DNA of 64,000 nt, taken from Deltaproteobacteria bacterium (GTDB lineage Bacteria; Desulfobacterota; Desulfomonilia; UBA1062). Both the position numbers and the translations under genes were made by a program. Under the pieces are notes generated by a model, which saw only the letters and a program-made list of their open reading frames with translations, ran no database searches and was not told the origin of the DNA. The stretch covers positions 62,001-126,000 of the forward strand of contig JAHDOV010000010.1 in NCBI GenBank assembly GCA_018434685.1, written 5' to 3'. Below, piece after piece: positions 40,421-51,392 of this stretch. Position 1 is the stretch's first letter; each line of letters starts with the position of its first letter.

Positions 40421-42061
40421 TCAGGATGCGTATTTCGAGGCATACTTCTCCACGATCTTGTACTTCTGTACCTTGCCGCTTGCCGTCATGGGCACATCGC
40501 TGACGAATTCCCAGTATCTCGGGATCTTGTGACGGGCGATCTTCCCGGTGCAGTACTCGACGAGCTCTTGTGCGGACATTTTTTCTCCCGGGTTAAAGAT
40601 AATCGTGGCAAGGACCTGCTCGCCGTATTTCTTGTCCGGCACCCCCACGACATAGACGTCGCTGACCTTGGGGTGTTTGTGGAGGAATTCCTCGATTTCC
40701 CGCGGGTAGATGTTCTCGCCGCCGCGGATGATCATCTCCTTGATCCTGCCGGTGACCTTGAAGTTGCCCCTTTCGTCGATGGTCCCCAGATCGCCGGTGT
40801 GGAGCCAGCCGTCCTGGTCGATGGCCTTGAGGGTCTCTTCGGGCATCTTGTAGTATCCCTTCATGACACAGGCGCTCCTGGTGACGATCTCGCCCTGGAC
40901 ATTTGCGGGCAGATCTTCACCTGTGGCCGGGTCGACGATCTTTCCCTCGATGTCCGGGAGCAGTCTTCCAACGGTGGACACCCTGATGTCCACCGGATCA
41001 TCCCGCCTCGTCATGGTCATCACCGGAGAAGATTCGGTCTGGCCAAAGGCGATGACCACCTCGGAGACATGCATGTTTTCCCTGACCTGGTTCATGGTCT
41101 CTTCCGGGCAGGGCGCGCCGGCCATGATGCCGGTCCTGAGCGAAGACATGTCGTACCTGGCAAAATCATCATGGTTCATGATGGCGATGTACATGGTGGG
41201 AACCCCATTGATAGCCGTACACTTTTCCTGCTCGATATACTTCAGTGCCTTGAGGGGATCGAAATATTCCATGGCCACCATGGTGGAGCCGTGAACAACG
41301 CAGTTCAGCGAGCTCATGACGCAGCCAAAGCAGTGAAACAGCGGTACCTGGATGAGGAGCCGGTCTATTTCCGTCATGCCCATGACGTCGCCGACCATGC
41401 GGGCATTGTTGACGACATTGTAATGGGTAAGCATGACCCCTTTCGGGAACCCCGTGGTGCCTGAGGTGTACTGCATGTTGACCACATCGTTGAAATGTAC
41501 GGACTGCTCCCGTTTTTCCAGGTCCCTGTCCGAAACGGACCTGCCGAGCCTGAGCAGGTCGTTGAAGTTATACATGCCTGGGGTAGTCTCCCTGCTGCCG
41601 ATATAGATGACATTCTTGAGGAAGGGCAGCTTTCTGGAGACAACCTGGCCCGGCCCGCACTCGTTCAGTTCGGGGACAACCTCCCGGACCGTGTCATAAA
41701 AACTCGTATCCCGGTACTGATCGATGAGCAGCAGGGTCGTCGAGTCGGACTGGTTGAGGATGTATTCGAGCTCGCTCGTCTTGTAATTGGTATTCACCGT
41801 AACCAGGACCGCGCCGATCATGCCGAGCGCGAACTGGGTGTAGATCCACTCGGGGACATTCGTTGTCCACACGGAGACATGGTCGCCCTTTTTTACGTCT
41901 ATGGCCATGAAGCCTTTTGCAACGTCTTGGCACGTTTGGAGGAACTCCGTGTAATTCTGTCTGAGCCCGGTCTCAAGGTATACAAGTGCGTCATTTCCAG
42001 GAAACCTGGCTGCGGTTTCTTTGAGGAGCTCACCCATGGTTATTTCTCTGAAGGTGCTCAT
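40421..42061 (-). CDS. Fatty/medium-chain acyl-CoA ligase (AMP-forming)
   Basis: A 546-residue ANL-superfamily enzyme. The P-loop-like MQYTSGTTGFPKGVMLTHYN, the A5/A7 regions VIAFGQTESSPV and GWLHTGDLGTIDERG, and the C-terminal Lys region PMTASGKVQKYKI are complete. The closest character is the FadK/AMP-binding group that activates fatty or aryl acids. GGAGG precedes the ATG. It is monocistronic on the minus strand. It could activate the acid formed by the aldehyde oxidoreductase of the nearby glycyl radical locus, by inference only. Confidence 0.93.
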   Translation of the reverse strand: MSTFREITMGELLKETAARFPGNDALVYLETGLRQNYTEFLQTCQDVAKGFMAIDVKKGDHVSVWTTNVPEWIYTQFALGMIGAVLVTVNTNYKTSELEYILNQSDSTTLLLIDQYRDTSFYDTVREVVPELNECGPGQVVSRKLPFLKNVIYIGSRETTPGMYNFNDLLRLGRSVSDRDLEKREQSVHFNDVVNMQYTSGTTGFPKGVMLTHYNVVNNARMVGDVMGMTEIDRLLIQVPLFHCFGCVMSSLNCVVHGSTMVAMEYFDPLKALKYIEQEKCTAINGVPTMYIAIMNHDDFARYDMSSLRTGIMAGAPCPEETMNQVRENMHVSEVVIAFGQTESSPVMTMTRRDDPVDIRVSTVGRLLPDIEGKIVDPATGEDLPANVQGEIVTRSACVMKGYYKMPEETLKAIDQDGWLHTGDLGTIDERGNFKVTGRIKEMIIRGGENIYPREIEEFLHKHPKVSDVYVVGVPDKKYGEQVLATIIFNPGEKMSAQELVEYCTGKIARHKIPRYWEFVSDVPMTASGKVQKYKIVEKYASKYAS

Positions 42062-43893: not shown

Positions 43894-44832
43894 TTAGCGG
43901 ATGTCGAAGCCGGCAAAGAAGTCCCTGCAGTGCCCGGTCTGTTCGGACGGCATCCAGGTCTTCATGGATTCATTTGTGGAAAACCCGCTGCTTCCTCCGA
44001 TCTTCTCGCACTTGTCAAACCACAGGGGATTATACGGCAGGAGCTCCACCTCGTGCATGTCCAGGTCTTTCAAGAAACGGGCGATCGAGGCCAGGTTGTC
44101 GTCTGTGGAGGTGATCCCCGGGACCAGCGGTATCCTCGGCAGGAGTTCCACAGAGTCTTGTCGACACCTGGCAGACAGGTGCGTGAAATTTTCCAGTATG
44201 CGTCTGTTCGATGCACCGCAGAAGGTTCTGTGCCGGGCATCGTCGAAGAGCTTGAGGTCGAAATAGATGATATCGAGCCAGGGATAGAGGGCCTCTAAGA
44301 AGACCTGGAGATCGAAGAGCCCGCAGGTTTCGATGAGGGTGCTGATTCCCCGGGATTTGAGCTCCTTGAGGAGTTCGGATATGAAACCCATGTACAGGGT
44401 AGGCTCCCCGCCGGAGAGCGTTATCCCGCCGCCAGAGGTCCTGAAGAACGGGATGTCCCGTTCGATCTCATGCATGAGTTCTGCGGTTTCCCAGTATCTC
44501 CCGACCTGGCTCAGCGCCCCGCTCGGACATTCGTCGACACAGTTCATGCACAGGCTGCAGCGGTCTCTGTCGATGTAGAGGGGATTGTGCCGGTCAAGGG
44601 CACCCTCGGGGCATGCCTTCCGGCAGGCCTCACACAAAATGCACTCGCCACTGTCAAAGGAAAGCTCGATGGTCTTTTTCTTACTCTCCGGGTTGTGGCA
44701 CCACACACAGTCGAGGGGGCAGCCCTTGAAGAAGATGACGGTCCTGATGCCGGGGCCGTCATCGAGGGAATTCCCCTTCACCTCGAAGATGAGGGCCTTG
44801 TCTTCGGTGCCGGTATGGGTAGTGTTCGCCAT
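43894..44832 (-). CDS. Glycyl radical enzyme activating protein
   Basis: A 312-residue radical SAM activase. The SAM cluster motif CPLDCVWC (CX3CX2C) follows GPGIRTVIFFKG. Between residues 60 and 110 a two-cluster ferredoxin insert has CILCEACRKACPEGAL and CSLCMNCVDECPSGAL. GGGITLSGGEPTLY is the SAM-binding motif. The insert marks activases of the glycerol dehydratase/choline lyase/benzylsuccinate type rather than of pyruvate formate-lyase. It starts 8 bp after the stop of the glycyl radical enzyme and should install the radical on its Gly962. Confidence 0.95.
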   Translation of the reverse strand: MANTTHTGTEDKALIFEVKGNSLDDGPGIRTVIFFKGCPLDCVWCHNPESKKKTIELSFDSGECILCEACRKACPEGALDRHNPLYIDRDRCSLCMNCVDECPSGALSQVGRYWETAELMHEIERDIPFFRTSGGGITLSGGEPTLYMGFISELLKELKSRGISTLIETCGLFDLQVFLEALYPWLDIIYFDLKLFDDARHRTFCGASNRRILENFTHLSARCRQDSVELLPRIPLVPGITSTDDNLASIARFLKDLDMHEVELLPYNPLWFDKCEKIGGSSGFSTNESMKTWMPSEQTGHCRDFFAGFDIR

Positions 44833-44840
44833 GATCCCTT

Positions 44841-47801
44841 CTATACGCCGAATTCGGCCCGCTCGATGAGCTCGAGCTGCATGTCCCTGTTCAGGGTCAC
44901 AAAATATGCGTTGTAGCCGGAGATGCGCACCATGAGGTTGCGGTAGTTCTCCGGGTGTGCCATGGCATCCCGCAGGGTATCCGATGATACCACGTTGAAC
45001 TGCATCTGCATGCCGCCGAGGTCGCAGTAGGTCTTTGCATAGGAATAGAGGTTCTCCACAGCCCTGGCGTGGCTCTCTCTTCCGGAGGGAACGACCTTGA
45101 CGTTGAAGGCGATGTTGTTGTTCATGTTTGCCGGTTCGAGCCGGGAGACATCGCGGATGTTGTCCAGGAGATTCTTCGACGCATGCGCCTCGGGTGTAAG
45201 CCCGGGGGTGAACGGCTTTCCTGCGCGTCTCCCGGACGGCAGCGCGCCGGTGAGGGTCCCGAAGGCAACGTGGTTGGACATGGACCAGAAGCCGGTCGTA
45301 TACTTTCCGCCCCTGAAGTTTCTGTGATCGCCGAAACGGTCATGGACGAACCTGGTGACCCGGTTCGCCATCTCCACCGCCTCGTCATTGCCCGATCCGA
45401 AGAGCGGTACCTTCTTGAGGACCAGCGCTTCGATCGCCGGGTCGTGTTCGAAGTTGGTCTCTACGGCACGCTTCAGGTCGGCCAGGCTCACCTTCTTCTC
45501 GTCGTAGACGAGATTTTTGATGGCCATGAGCGAATCCGTTATGTCTGCCAGGCCGATGCAGGCAGTGCCGGACGAGTTGTGCATCGCCCCGGCCTTTGTC
45601 ACGTCGCGGCCCTTTTCAATGGTTCCGCTGATAAGCCCGGAGATGAACGGCGTCGGCCTGATGATGCTGTGCGCCTCGCCGAGGAGGTTGTTGTATTCGC
45701 ATGAATTGTCCATGAGAAAGTTCAGCTGCGCACAGAAGGCCTCGAAGAACTCGTCAAAGGTCTCGAAACACCCGTTGTCCATGGTGCCGGTTTTGGGCCC
45801 CACATCCCATCTCATCAGGGGGTGGTACCCGTTGTACATGGCCATCTCGAGAGCCGCCACCATGTTGAACATCATGCAGTTGGTATGGCCCAGGTGTTTT
45901 CCGGAGAGCGTCGGCTCCACACACCCTGTGGCAGCCCAGTCTCTGAGGTGCTCGGGCGGATAGTGGAACTCTGCAAGAGAATTCATGACCGCCTCATCGT
46001 TATGGATGGACGGCGTGGCCGTTGTGTTCTTGTTCACCTCGCACAGCCGCTTCAGGTATGTCTCGGAGTTCTTCTCCCTGTTGTAGCGTGCATTGACATT
46101 CGGGTCCCTGATACTGAGCATCTCGGTGACCTTCAGGAAGAGGTAGGTCATATCATTGACCGCATCGGTTCCTTCGGGGGTAACGCCACCCAGGGTGATG
46201 GCCTGGTCCGAGGAACTCCCGCCGAAAAGGTAGTTGCCGATATCGGGGATGAGGGGGAGATGATCGGTGCAGCGCAGATAGAAGCAGCCGACAAGCTCGA
46301 GTGCGTGCTTGATGTAGCTCTTTTTCTCTGCCTTGGTCCTGAGTTTTTTCATGTCTGCGGCAAAGTAGGGCTGCAGCCACTGATCCATCCGGCCCAGGGA
46401 GAATCCCGCGTTGGTGTTTTCCATGTGCATGCCCACCCAGTGGATCCAGATGGCATTGAGCGCTTCCTCCAGGGTCTTGCAGGGGTTCTCCGGAACCCGC
46501 GCGCAGATCTCCGAGAGCCTTTCCAGTTCAGCTCTTCTCCGGGGATCTGTCTCTCCTTGAGCCTCTGCCTTTGCCTGCAGAGAGAGGTTTTTCGCATAGG
46601 CTAGAAGTCCTTCGTAGGTGAGAATCATGGCATGGAGGGTATCTTTCTTGAGCTGGTCTGCCTTCGTGTCTCTTTTCAGCTCAGCCTGGATCTCCCGGAT
46701 TATCCCCTTTGCGCCGACCTTCAAGAGCCTGGGGTAGTCCAGGATGGTGTGGGACAGCGCTGCGGTCTTCCAGAGGAAGTAGACGGCAAACCGTTCGTCG
46801 AGGCTCTGGCTCAGAGGGGCGTCGTAGTGGTTCCTCACCCATTCCCGCATATTCCTGTTGATCCAGAAGGGGAAGACGCTGTGGTGGAGGATATCCCTGG
46901 TCTCGGCAGAGATGTCATAGGGGAACAGCTGCCGGTACGGGGTGGTGAACAGCTCACCCCAGATCATGGTTCCGTGCGTATCGGGATACAGGACAACGCC
47001 GATCTCCCTCGTGGTGGTCGTTCCTGCAATGAGGTCGTCTTTCCTGATGATGGGCTTCTTGTTCTCCATGAGATACTTGAAGGCGTGGGCCTGCCTCAGT
47101 TCGGCAACCCAGTCATTGCCGAGGGCATCTTTCTCAAAGCCGTTTTCCCGGTACCACCGGGTGAGCAGCAGGGGCCGTTCGTGGCAGATGGCAGGTCTCT
47201 GTGTAAAATGGATGTCGAGGAAATTCTTCAGCCTGGGGAAATCGTCGAGGTCGTACGAGGAAAGATACGGGTCGTCTTTGAGGTATTTCACCCCGCCATC
47301 GACGTGTTCGGCCTTGAGCGGCCTGTTCTTTTTCCGGGCGGCGCCGGCCGGCCTCGGGATGCACTGCCGGTCTGCCGGGGCAGGTCTGGCCGATTGTTTC
47401 TGCATCATCTTGATCTGCTTGCCCTTCATGAAGAGCGAGATGTAGAAGTTGAACAGCTGCGCATAGGCAAGATTGCCCCTGAGCGTAAGCTTGTTCTTGA
47501 GGATCAGGTTGAGCACCTCGTTCGGCGGCAGCTCGGTCATCTTCTTCAGCACGGAATTATCCATGAAGATCATCTCGACATCCACATCCTCGGGGATCCT
47601 GCCCGACACCCGCACCTTTCCGCCCTCAAAGGTGATGCACTGCTGAACAGATCCTTTTTCCGTGCTGATCCCAAGGGAGAAATCAATCCAGCCGTCATCC
47701 GATCGCAGATATCTCCTGAACCTGGGGAAGAGGTTGAAGTGGAGCGCCATGGTCTGGAGGAGGAGATGTGTTGCGATATTGGCGACATCTTGTTTATGCA
47801 T
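44841..47801 (-). CDS. Glycyl radical enzyme with N-terminal SCP2-like domain
   Basis: A 986-residue protein, about 150 longer than usual glycyl radical enzymes. Residues about 25-130 match the SCP2 lipid-binding fold: VDVEMIFMDNSVLKKMT and NKLTLRGNLAYAQLF align with the SCP2 consensus including GNL/M. A basic linker (130-165) precedes the ten-stranded-barrel domain. The active site is ATGCVEPTLSG, giving Cys627 with Glu629. The glycyl loop is VRISGYNAYFV with Gly962. Diol dehydratases have Asp 14 residues after Cys; here it is Asn641. The ATG at 47801 follows AGGAGGT. Class and substrate are unknown. Confidence 0.93.
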   Translation of the reverse strand: MHKQDVANIATHLLLQTMALHFNLFPRFRRYLRSDDGWIDFSLGISTEKGSVQQCITFEGGKVRVSGRIPEDVDVEMIFMDNSVLKKMTELPPNEVLNLILKNKLTLRGNLAYAQLFNFYISLFMKGKQIKMMQKQSARPAPADRQCIPRPAGAARKKNRPLKAEHVDGGVKYLKDDPYLSSYDLDDFPRLKNFLDIHFTQRPAICHERPLLLTRWYRENGFEKDALGNDWVAELRQAHAFKYLMENKKPIIRKDDLIAGTTTTREIGVVLYPDTHGTMIWGELFTTPYRQLFPYDISAETRDILHHSVFPFWINRNMREWVRNHYDAPLSQSLDERFAVYFLWKTAALSHTILDYPRLLKVGAKGIIREIQAELKRDTKADQLKKDTLHAMILTYEGLLAYAKNLSLQAKAEAQGETDPRRRAELERLSEICARVPENPCKTLEEALNAIWIHWVGMHMENTNAGFSLGRMDQWLQPYFAADMKKLRTKAEKKSYIKHALELVGCFYLRCTDHLPLIPDIGNYLFGGSSSDQAITLGGVTPEGTDAVNDMTYLFLKVTEMLSIRDPNVNARYNREKNSETYLKRLCEVNKNTTATPSIHNDEAVMNSLAEFHYPPEHLRDWAATGCVEPTLSGKHLGHTNCMMFNMVAALEMAMYNGYHPLMRWDVGPKTGTMDNGCFETFDEFFEAFCAQLNFLMDNSCEYNNLLGEAHSIIRPTPFISGLISGTIEKGRDVTKAGAMHNSSGTACIGLADITDSLMAIKNLVYDEKKVSLADLKRAVETNFEHDPAIEALVLKKVPLFGSGNDEAVEMANRVTRFVHDRFGDHRNFRGGKYTTGFWSMSNHVAFGTLTGALPSGRRAGKPFTPGLTPEAHASKNLLDNIRDVSRLEPANMNNNIAFNVKVVPSGRESHARAVENLYSYAKTYCDLGGMQMQFNVVSSDTLRDAMAHPENYRNLMVRISGYNAYFVTLNRDMQLELIERAEFGV

Positions 47802-47983: not shown

Positions 47984-48679
47984 TCAGCGGGTCTTGATCT
48001 GCCGGCACGCATCACTGTTCTCCCTGTTCTGAGCCTTCAGGGCTTCCGGTACGAACAAGCGGACAATGTCTTCGACGATCCTGTCGATGATCCTGTCCGG
48101 ATGATCATCGACCTCCTGCAGCACCCTGCTGTTGGACAGGGCGATGATGCCGTGGAGAAAACTCCACAGCTTTATTGCGGCGTAGCGGGTGTCCAGTGGA
48201 TCGATACCGGGATTCATCCGGGCGAGTTCTTCCATGCCCCGGGAGGCAATGTCGACGAGCCGGAGGGCTGTCTGCTTCTCGAAGTATGCGACCGGTTCGA
48301 TATCGGTGCCGATATAATCCCGATACTTCGGGGCATCGGAGGTGAACATGATGTTGTAGTAGTGAGCCTTCTCGATGCCGAATGCCGCGTATGCCCTGAT
48401 CATCTCCCGGAACCGTTCGAGCGGGTCTTCGTGAGAACCGTATATGTCGAGCAGCCGGGAATAGAGCATGTCGAAGCCCTTGGTGAGCATCATGAGATAG
48501 AGCTCGTCCTTGCTGGAATAGTAGTTGTATATGGTTGTGGCCGACATGCCCAGTCTGGAGGCGAGCTTGCGCATGCTGAAATACTTGTAGCCGTGTTCAG
48601 AGATAATGGTGATCGCCACGTCGAGGATTTTTTCCCTCATTAATTCAATATCTTCTTGACTACGGGCTGCCTTTGGCAT
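47984..48679 (-). CDS. TetR/AcrR-family regulator of the glycyl radical locus
   Basis: A 231-residue repressor. The helix-turn-helix spans about residues 18-65 (AITIISEHGYKYFSMRKLAS, GMSATTIYNYYSSKDELYLM). The ligand domain includes EKAHYYNIMFTSDAPKY, as in WHG/TetR_C_33-type regulators that sense lipids or aromatics. It lies upstream of the glycyl radical enzyme on the same strand and is divergent from the aldehyde oxidoreductase. A tandem palindromic operator covers the shared region. Confidence 0.9.
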   Translation of the reverse strand: MPKAARSQEDIELMREKILDVAITIISEHGYKYFSMRKLASRLGMSATTIYNYYSSKDELYLMMLTKGFDMLYSRLLDIYGSHEDPLERFREMIRAYAAFGIEKAHYYNIMFTSDAPKYRDYIGTDIEPVAYFEKQTALRLVDIASRGMEELARMNPGIDPLDTRYAAIKLWSFLHGIIALSNSRVLQEVDDHPDRIIDRIVEDIVRLFVPEALKAQNRENSDACRQIKTR

Positions 48680-48696
48680 AAAAACTCCTATGACAC

Positions 48697-48724
48697 TTAA
48701 CGCTGTTAAGTTAACGGTGTTATA
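48697..48724. promoter_or_regulatory. Tandem palindromic operator of the TetR gene
   Basis: Two adjacent copies, TTAACGCTGTTAAG (48697-48710) and TTAACGGTGTTATA (48711-48724), are each a near-palindrome of TTAAC-N3-GTTAA. Together they form a 28-bp operator starting 18 bp before the TetR start codon. The same site could control the divergent aldehyde oxidoreductase gene. Confidence 0.65.
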
Positions 48725-48979: not shown

Positions 48980-50938
48980 ATGGATAGAGGATATATGGGC
49001 AAAATATTGCTGGTGGATCTCGGAACTAAAGAGATCCATGAGGAACAGATACCCGATGAGATATATGAGAATTATCTCTCCGGAATGGGACTGGCTACCC
49101 ACATTCTGTACAACAGGATCCCGGCAGGCGCCGATCCGCTTGGTCCGGACAATATCCTCGGTTTTGTCTCCGGACTGCTGACCGGTACGGGCAGTCTGTT
49201 TTCCGGGAGATGGATGGTCGTGGGGAAGTCCCCGCTCACCGGCGGCTGGGGAGACGCAAACTGCGGCGGTACATTTTCTCCTGCAATAAAGCGCTGCGGC
49301 TATGACGGGATATTCTTCAGAGGGATCAGTAAAAAACCCGTGTACCTGTATGTGAATGACCGGAAGGCTGAGCTGAAAGATGCCTCCGATTTCTGGGGCA
49401 AGGATGCCGTGGAGACCGAAGAGCTTCTCCTCGAGAAGGCAGGTCCCGGAGCCAGGGCCGCTGTTATCGGGCCTGCAGGCGAAAAACTCTCTCTGATATC
49501 AGGGGTGTGTAATGACAAGGGCAGGCTGGCTGCCAGGTCCGGGCTCGGTGCGGTCATGGGCTCGAAGAGGCTCAAGGCCGTGGTGCTCGACGGCAACAAG
49601 CGGATCAGGCCTTATGACCGTGAGGCACTGCAGAAGCTCAGCAGGAAGTGCAACAAGTGGGTGCAGTTCCAGCTGCCTTTGGGACCGGGTGTCGCGATAG
49701 GCTATCTCGGAACGCTGCTGCGGATACTTCCCACTGCCATGGCAATGGACGGCATGGTCTACAAGATGCTGCTGCGGAAATGGGGAACCGGAGGCATGAA
49801 CCAGATGTCCCCGGAGTGGGGCGACGCACCGGTCAAGAACTGGAAGGGCAGCTCCGTGGACTGGCCCATGAAAAGATCGAAGTCCGCAGACCCGGACATG
49901 GTGAAGAAACACGAAAGGATCAAGTATCACTGCTATGCCTGTCCCCTGGGATGCGGCGGCATCTGTTCTCTGAACGGCAAGTACGCGGAGACCCACAAGC
50001 CCGAGTATGAATCGGTCCTTGCCTTGGGCGGGCTGTGCATGAACGAGGATTCCGACAGTCTCTTCCATATCAACGAGATATTGAACCGGGCTGGAATGGA
50101 TACCATATCGACAGGTGCAACCGTTGCGTTTGCCATGGAATGTTATGAGAACGGGATCTTGACAAAAAAAGAGACCGATGGGCTCGAGCTCACCTGGGGC
50201 AATACGAATGCCATGATTGCCCTCATCCACAAGATGATCAACCGTGAGGGCATCGGTGATATACTCGCCGACGGCTCGCGGGTTGCGGCCCGAAAGATCG
50301 GTAAAGGGGCTGAGCGGTTCGCGGTTCATGCTGGCGGCCAGGAACCGGCCATGCACGACGGCAGGCAGGATCCTGGGTTTGCGCTGCACTACAGCGTGGA
50401 GCCGACGCCGGGCAGGCATACCATCGGGGCGGGCCTCTACTACGAGATGTTCCAGCTCTGGAAAAAGGTCAAGGGGCTTCCGAAAATGTGGCCGTTCGAG
50501 ATTTATCACAAGAACAAGAAGTACCGGGCAACGAAAGATCAGGCCAAGGCAGCGGCAGCGTGCAGCCAGTACATGAACGTGGTCAATGGCTCGGGCCTGT
50601 GCATGTTCGGAACCTTTATCGGGATAAAGAGAACGCCGACCTTTGACTGGCTGAACGCGGCAACCGGCTGGAACAGAACCCCTGAAGAATACATGAAGAT
50701 CGGTCAGCGCATCCAGACGGTCAAACAGGCCTTCAACGTCAAGCACGGCATCGATCCCAGGGCAAATGTCCTGAGCGGCCGGGCAGTGGGAATCCCGCCG
50801 CAGGCCGAGGGCGCGAATAAGGGCAGGACCGTTGATATTTCTAAGATGATGAGCGACTACTGGGAACTGTTCGGGTGGGATGCACACACCGGAATGCCAG
50901 GAGAAGAGACCTTGAACAGGCTCGGTATAGAGTCTTGA
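48980..50938 (+). CDS. aor: Aldehyde:ferredoxin oxidoreductase (tungsten family)
   Basis: A 652-residue enzyme of the AOR family, which oxidises aldehydes to acids with ferredoxin (or reduces acids). The N-terminal domain MGKILLVDLGTKEIHEEQIP and SGRWMVVGKSPLTGGWGDAN are typical. Cysteines CYACPLGCGGIC around residue 320 plus Cys in GSGLCMFG can bind the [4Fe-4S] cluster next to the tungstopterin. GGAGGGG precedes the ATG at 48980. The polyferredoxin gene follows 25 bp later. The divergent glycyl radical genes suggest a shared aldehyde intermediate. Confidence 0.93.
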   Translation: MDRGYMGKILLVDLGTKEIHEEQIPDEIYENYLSGMGLATHILYNRIPAGADPLGPDNILGFVSGLLTGTGSLFSGRWMVVGKSPLTGGWGDANCGGTFSPAIKRCGYDGIFFRGISKKPVYLYVNDRKAELKDASDFWGKDAVETEELLLEKAGPGARAAVIGPAGEKLSLISGVCNDKGRLAARSGLGAVMGSKRLKAVVLDGNKRIRPYDREALQKLSRKCNKWVQFQLPLGPGVAIGYLGTLLRILPTAMAMDGMVYKMLLRKWGTGGMNQMSPEWGDAPVKNWKGSSVDWPMKRSKSADPDMVKKHERIKYHCYACPLGCGGICSLNGKYAETHKPEYESVLALGGLCMNEDSDSLFHINEILNRAGMDTISTGATVAFAMECYENGILTKKETDGLELTWGNTNAMIALIHKMINREGIGDILADGSRVAARKIGKGAERFAVHAGGQEPAMHDGRQDPGFALHYSVEPTPGRHTIGAGLYYEMFQLWKKVKGLPKMWPFEIYHKNKKYRATKDQAKAAAACSQYMNVVNGSGLCMFGTFIGIKRTPTFDWLNAATGWNRTPEEYMKIGQRIQTVKQAFNVKHGIDPRANVLSGRAVGIPPQAEGANKGRTVDISKMMSDYWELFGWDAHTGMPGEETLNRLGIES

Positions 50939-50963
50939 GTAGTATCATGCAGGGAGGGATGCC

Positions 50964-51392
50964 ATGTCATATACGATAACGGATGCATGCAACGGGTGCG
51001 GGGCCTGTAAGAAAATATGCCCGGTCGAGGCCGTCGAGGGAAAGAAAAAGGCGATCCACAGCATTAACGAAACGGTGTGCATTGAATGTGGCGCCTGTGG
51101 AAAGGTCTGTCCCCAGGGCGCTGTGCTCGATCAGTCCGGCACGGCCTGTGTGATGATGAAACGGTCCCAGTGGGAAAAGCCGGTCTTTGATCTCGCCTTG
51201 TGCATGTCCTGCACCGTCTGTGTCGATACATGCCCGCTGAATTCCCTGGTGATGTCGGACGCACGGGACCGCAAGAGAGATCCCCACGGCTACCCGTATC
51301 TCAGGGATGAAAAGGCGTGCATAGGGTGCGGGTTCTGTGCCCTCGAGTGCCCGGTGGATGCCATCACCATGACCGCCCCCGCCCTGCAATGA
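50964..51392 (+). CDS. Polyferredoxin with four 4Fe-4S motifs
   Basis: A 142-residue protein with four CX2CX2CX3CP motifs: CNGCGACKKICP, CIECGACGKVCP, CMSCTVCVDTCP and CIGCGFCALECP. They can hold four [4Fe-4S] clusters in two ferredoxin modules. AGGGAGG precedes the start. It follows the aldehyde oxidoreductase gene directly and is its probable electron carrier or small subunit. Confidence 0.93.
   Translation: MSYTITDACNGCGACKKICPVEAVEGKKKAIHSINETVCIECGACGKVCPQGAVLDQSGTACVMMKRSQWEKPVFDLALCMSCTVCVDTCPLNSLVMSDARDRKRDPHGYPYLRDEKACIGCGFCALECPVDAITMTAPALQ

Follow-up and report, generated by a model that had tools for sequence, protein, structure and literature searches.

Introduction

The best-known glycyl radical enzymes (GREs) act on small polar molecules or on hydrocarbons. 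Those that catalyze eliminations (glycerol/propanediol dehydratase, CutC and HypD; TIGR01774) share a PFL-like barrel, a GCVE motif, a glycyl radical motif and a radical SAM activase with extra 4Fe-4S motifs. Proteins of the SCP2 family (PF02036: SCP2, the SCP2-like domain of MFE-2, UbiJ and UbiT) have been described in other enzymatic settings: the ligands of UbiJ are hydrophobic ubiquinone intermediates, and UbiT acts in an O2-independent pathway, for which a ubiT-ubiU fusion also exists (PMC6747719). The alkylsulfatases, which carry an SCP2-fold domain and act on alkyl-chain substrates, provide a precedent for an enzyme of such architecture (PMC5426288).

The window considered here (the whole stretch of DNA that was analysed, 64,000 nucleotides long) belongs to an anaerobic bacterium and encodes a protein in which these two families meet: an oxygen-sensitive, eliminase-type GRE with a genuine SCP2 domain that is not a glycerol dehydratase. 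It has the barrel, both motifs and the activase of the GRE eliminases, but differs from them in possessing the additional domain and in falling below the NCBIfam cut-offs. That domain agrees with the SCP2 family in fold and motif spacing, yet unlike its described members it is fused to the N-terminus of a GRE or, in related operons, encoded beside one. Among the closest parallels, the alkylsulfatases SdsA1, SdsAP and Pisa1 likewise join a catalytic domain to an SCP2-fold domain, though they are metallo-beta-lactamase hydrolases and not radical enzymes, and their SCP2 domain is C-terminal. The UbiT-UbiU-UbiV system of O2-independent ubiquinone synthesis also associates an SCP2 protein with anaerobic enzymes, at times as a fusion, but with UbiU-UbiV hydroxylases in place of a GRE and with ubiquinone intermediates. 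The alkylsuccinate and benzylsuccinate synthases are GREs for hydrophobic substrates from similar anaerobes; they differ in their lower similarity, in their chemistry and in showing no SCP2 domain in the solved chains. Indeed, solved GREs align with the window protein only from about residue 192 onward. A literature search for a GRE with SCP2 or ether lipid found no relevant paper, an absence that is weak, as subscription journals lay mostly outside the search. For solved GREs and the searchable literature, then, the assertion of an earlier note on this DNA that no characterized GRE has such a domain holds, and the SCP2-linked GREs are apparently a large, undescribed group.

The enzyme and its SCP2 domain

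The assignment of the 994-residue protein to the GREs is supported by Pfam matches above the curated cut-offs, both for the barrel (PF02901, E 4e-169, 564.6 bits) and for the glycyl radical domain (PF01228, 87 bits). Together with Cys635, Gly970 and an adjoining radical SAM activase (Table 1), these domains place it among the PFL-like GREs, and its GCVE motif with the general-base Glu places it with the eliminases of the glycerol dehydratase/CutC type. No named NCBIfam model is reached: TIGR01774 scores 490.1 bits against a cut-off of 678.2, and none of the dehydratase, lyase and decarboxylase equivalogs comes near (208-413 bits against cut-offs of at least 1000). Fused homologues number about 80, with identities of 44-80%.

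Table 1. Coordinates of the features discussed, in the window except where a locus is named.
Feature	Position	Strand	Basis
SCP2-GRE fusion protein, 994 aa	44841..47825	-	ORF; PFL-like and Gly_radical Pfam matches; ~80 fused homologues
N-terminal SCP2-fold domain, ~residues 12-146	47388..47792	-	Sequence matches and AlphaFold2 model
PFL-like GRE barrel, residues 207-856	45258..47207	-	PF02901; His359, Cys635, Glu637 family-invariant
Glycyl radical domain, residues 872-976; RISGY motif, radical Gly970	44898..45212	-	PF01228
Radical SAM activase of the GRE (312 aa) with two additional 4Fe-4S motifs	43894..44832	-	TIGR02494
TetR-family regulator, directly upstream of GRE	47984..48679	-	PF00440 and PF13305
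Near-perfect palindrome of 25 bp between the divergent TetR and AOR genes; likely the TetR operator	48698..48722	.	Conservation
Tungsten-type aldehyde:ferredoxin oxidoreductase (AOR); ORF open from 48815	48980..50938	+	PF02730/PF01314
Ferredoxin, four 4Fe-4S motifs, adjoining AOR	50964..51392	+	Pfam/NCBIfam
Fatty-acid-CoA-ligase-like protein	40421..42061	-	Stays near GRE in the window's lineage
DUF6765 genes	L121 5118-6242; L126 2607-3734; L127 7875-8954; L128 5777-6970; L131 2638-3777		

The earlier note had proposed an SCP2-like domain at 47409-47730, which corresponds to residues 32-139 of the minus-strand ORF. The SCP2 region is confirmed there, although the domain proves slightly longer than claimed. 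Judged by the window protein only, the evidence is weak; it becomes strong once relatives are included. PF02036, with a Pfam cut-off of 21.3 bits, scores 13.4 bits (E 0.1) on the full protein and 17.9 bits (E 0.0039) on the isolated domain, both below that threshold; several fused GREs among the protein's relatives, one of them from the same genus, score 21.4-26.6 bits and pass it. SCP2 is matched by 18 of 24 homologous N-terminal domains (best E 9.2e-6), and no other family matches more than one of them. In a PDB search with the domain profile, SCP2 proteins were the only chains reached, if weakly (E 0.5-0.6), and hhalign of the domain against SCP2 proteins gave P 3.7e-5, compared with 0.4 for the reversed target.

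Structure prediction, the other check that had been suggested, bears the fold out. An AlphaFold2 model of the domain, built from an alignment of the window sequence with those of 23 homologous loci, has a pLDDT of 83 and a pTM of 0.75, and its order of two helices, four strands, two helices, a strand and a long helix is that of SCP2. Foldseek returned UbiJ-SCP2 first (1e-6), followed by the SCP2-fold domains of SdsA1 and Pisa1 and by human SCP2-like domains. Structural alignment with VIA-align gave its highest Z to Pisa1 (13.9), ahead of the liganded MFE-2 domain (12.7), palmitate-bound mosquito SCP2 (12.0) and rabbit SCP2 (11.4); the SCP2 matches span 104-115 residues at Z 11-14, against about 7 for unrelated rows, and the sequence identity to them is low (about 6-21%). 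The SCP2 fold and the fusion architecture are thus well supported by computation.

A domain of this fold need not carry a substrate. It might instead serve as a docking module that tethers the enzyme to the membrane, a partner or a metabolon by way of its surface or its last helix, which is long and hydrophobic; the substrate would then not have to enter the cavity. That helix is strongly hydrophobic in its first half (mean Eisenberg 0.58) and polar and basic in its second, and the SCP2 domain of UbiJ also organizes a multiprotein complex (PMC6747719); against this, the full SCP2 topology is kept, and most of the domain can be aligned with SCP2 structures that contain a ligand. We regard docking as the main rival to lipid presentation; it is rather unlikely, and the two could coexist.

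Fused and adjacent-gene forms

A profile scan of genome contigs with residues 10-330 as the query turned up 165 loci with relatives of the first 320 residues or so, 80 of which were kept. The retrieved loci, about 80 in number and drawn from seven or more phyla, conserve the fusion in full or partial form, at 48-80% identity over the aligned length; their sources include Thermodesulfobacteriota, Bacillota (rumen Lachnospiraceae and Mogibacterium), Chloroflexota, Actinomycetota and Spirochaetota, as well as Myxococcota and Pseudomonadota as labelled and unplaced MAGs; individual MAG labels behind this list may be wrong. When genomes were drawn evenly across the phylum of the window and surveyed with the domain profile, 33 of 297 proved to contain the domain. 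One Desulfobacterium MAG encodes two SCP2-GRE fusions in tandem (L095, 7269-13212).

The closest GREs without the N-terminal domain (L031-L036) are followed directly by a separate SCP2-like ORF of 145-180 aa, which precedes the activase gene wherever the contig extends far enough. Standalone SCP2 genes were also sampled independently of the GRE, with the domain as the query, at 12 further survey loci and one locus in the genome of the window itself. An intact or stop-split GRE is adjacent in nine of these 13 (L121-L128 and L130), and on a short contig (L120) the activase adjoins the SCP2 gene. Two more retain remnants, namely a nearby GRE fragment (L129) and a deletion product that joins a GRE fragment to SCP2 (L131), and the last, from the window's own genome (L132, G000:C44, 4935-5348), is a degenerate fragment of the N-terminal domain with no GRE nearby. 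The GRE frame of L130 (4453-7062) is broken by a single TAG, whether through error, pseudogenization or recoding. No SCP2 was found near more distant GREs (L137-L144), which share less than about 35% identity with the window protein.

All SCP2-linked GREs belong to one clade. An unrooted tree of 48 GRE domains, made by a quick method with SH-aLRT support and no bootstrap, unites them on a single branch (SH-aLRT 100) that contains a fused (100) and a separate-gene (95) group. Taken together, the matches among homologues, the modelled fold, the conservation across phyla and this alternation between fused and adjacent genes uphold the central proposal of the earlier note that the GRE carries an SCP2-like domain. 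The clade spans syntrophs, sulfate reducers, Chloroflexota, Actinomycetota, Spirochaetota, Myxococcota and rumen Bacillota, and the nearly constant presence of SCP2 across it, as domain or as neighbour, points to an unrecognized anaerobic lipid transformation. Where the genes are separate, SCP2 is one small protein that can be added or omitted, and its role is thereby open to direct testing.

Active site

Comparison with glycerol dehydratase divides the active site into conserved and altered parts. Cys433, Glu435 and His164 of that enzyme correspond to Cys635, Glu637 and His359 here, and these three residues and Gly970 are invariant across the rows of the family alignment that cover each of them (Glu637 in 90 of 90). 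In contrast, and as a further departure from the GRE eliminases, His281, Ser282, Asp447 and Tyr339 are replaced by A473, G474, N649 and D540, leaving His164 as the only one of the four substrate residues of the B12-independent glycerol dehydratase (His164, His281, Ser282 and Asp447) that is kept in the window GRE. With four positions exchanged, the reaction may not be diol dehydration. At position 649, the 36 SCP2-linked GREs in the tree all have Asn, Gly, Ser or Ala, whereas eight of the 12 GREs outside the clade have Asp, a contrast that may represent a single evolutionary event. Given the functions ascribed to the glycerol dehydratase residues, Asp447 being the glycerol-binding acid, the clade has retained the parts of an eliminase and lost the acid that binds the substrate.

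These residues bear on two other explanations. In one, the enzyme would join a hydrophobic substrate to an acceptor in the manner of the alkylsuccinate and benzylsuccinate synthases, with SCP2 supplying an alkane-like molecule. Such fumarate-adding GREs do handle hydrophobic substrates, and some relatives of the window protein occur in hydrocarbon-associated sulfate reducers and syntrophs. However, the GCVE motif with its eliminase Glu is invariant, which makes this chemistry less likely; the top-scoring solved relatives are dehydratases and choline lyase, with MasD and TutD lower, and rumen Lachnospiraceae carry the SCP2-GRE as well. We consider the idea very unlikely. We would give about as little credence to the other, in which the domain has kept its fold and lost lipid binding, merely stabilizing or regulating a GRE with an ordinary small-molecule substrate. 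The divergence of the domain from canonical SCP2 sequences, which leaves the window protein below the Pfam cut-off, is what such a loss might look like, but the association is near-obligate in both fused and separate forms, retains conserved motifs and is coupled to the loss of the glycerol-binding Asp.

Gene neighbourhood and regulation

The activase gene lies directly downstream of the GRE (TIGR02494, 279 bits, above cut-off) and adjoins it in 48 of 79 loci, and the TetR gene belongs to the cluster in 42 of 79. Divergent from this TetR-GRE-activase unit stands a second one of AOR and ferredoxin (48980-51392), in which the closest solved relative of the AOR is that of P. furiosus (1aor, E 1e-100), with benzoyl-CoA reductase far lower. 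The main conserved block among eight aligned TetR/AOR intergenic regions from syntenic loci is the palindrome TAACGCTGTTAAGTTAACGGTGTTA, which is exact in seven homologous loci, has a chance expectation of 0 in the window and recurs nowhere else in the window or the genome at up to three mismatches. Its conservation and position suggest that it is likely the TetR operator, controlling both units. TetR matches to FasR, FadR and KstR were set aside as a clue to the ligand, as the similarity lies mostly in the DNA-binding half.

An AOR adjoins the GRE in only two or three independent lineages: that of the window, a rearranged copy (L048) and rumen Clostridiales (L103 and L109), whose AORs are only 27-28% identical to that of the window. 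Both types are nearest to the P. furiosus enzyme and not to benzoyl-CoA reductase. Lineages that lack an AOR have either nothing obvious or a pair of SDR oxidoreductases, an OleD/HpnA-like extended SDR and a classical SDR, which are separate adjacent genes in the TetR-GRE-activase-SDR-SDR operons of Smithella-type loci (e.g., L065). At two loci (L106, 11906-13750; L070, 12107-13978) the OleD-like and classical SDRs are fused to each other and follow directly after the SCP2-GRE.

The SDR operons are an argument that the GRE might make rather than degrade a lipid, helping, with OleD-like and 3-ketosphinganine-reductase-like SDRs, to build or remodel an unusual membrane lipid. The OleD and KdsR families act on lipid ketones, which counts in favour of this proposal. 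Nonetheless, the SDR families are too broad to set a direction, the lineage of the window has AOR and ferredoxin in their stead, and a nearby TetR gene, together with an operator-like palindrome that occurs once in the genome, resembles an inducible catabolic unit. A role in biosynthesis would suit the loci with SDRs better than those with AOR, and overall it seems to us unlikely.

Proposed function

The presence of SCP2, fused or next door, in a large group of GREs suggests anaerobic radical chemistry on fat-like molecules. The SCP2 fold, its fused and adjacent-gene forms, the single clade, the catalytic residues, the changed pocket position and the shared palindrome are supported computationally, and the delivery of a lipid-like substrate, as suggested in the earlier note, would fit the AOR under that palindrome, the lost glycerol-binding Asp and the precedents among SCP2 proteins. 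We infer from these the binding of a lipid, its hand-over, the chemistry and the product, and place the probability at roughly one half that SCP2 presents a lipid to a GRE eliminase, yielding an aldehyde that is oxidized by the AOR. The confinement of AOR to two or three lineages and the exchanged glycerol dehydratase residues count against this reading.

In such a scheme, the SCP2 domain would take up a lipid-like substrate by its hydrophobic portion, leaving the polar end exposed to the radical barrel. The activase would form the glycyl radical on Gly970, from which it would pass to Cys635, and the resulting thiyl radical would take a hydrogen beside a hydroxyl of the substrate. With Glu637 as the base, a neighbouring group (water, or an O- or N-linked group) would then be eliminated to leave an aldehyde, as modelled on glycerol dehydratase or choline lyase. 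In the lineage of the window, the divergent AOR and ferredoxin would oxidize the aldehyde to a carboxylic acid, and they are probably derepressed by the same TetR as the GRE.

A more specific version, which we hold to be speculative and rather doubtful, is that the clade acts on intact membrane-type lipids, SCP2 gripping one or more alkyl chains while the barrel eliminates a group from the glycerol or diol head. Were this so, the enzyme could, for instance, cleave glycerol ether lipids as a C-O lyase, and the clade would represent a lipid-degrading radical route that requires no O2, CoA or cobalamin.

Other genes near the enzyme

The fatty-acid-CoA-ligase-like gene of the window has a weaker tie to the GRE, possibly reflecting synteny alone. 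In five loci, the separate-gene GRE-SCP2-activase operons stand beside genes for DUF6765 (PF20551) with a conserved HxxxDxxxH motif. A weak Pfam hint (E 0.017) that these encode a zinc phospholipase C found no support in a PDB profile search, and DUF6765 was for that reason left out as evidence. At a single locus (L107, 12949-16011), the GRE and activase are followed by a 1020-aa protein with similarity to class III aminotransferases (PigE-like).
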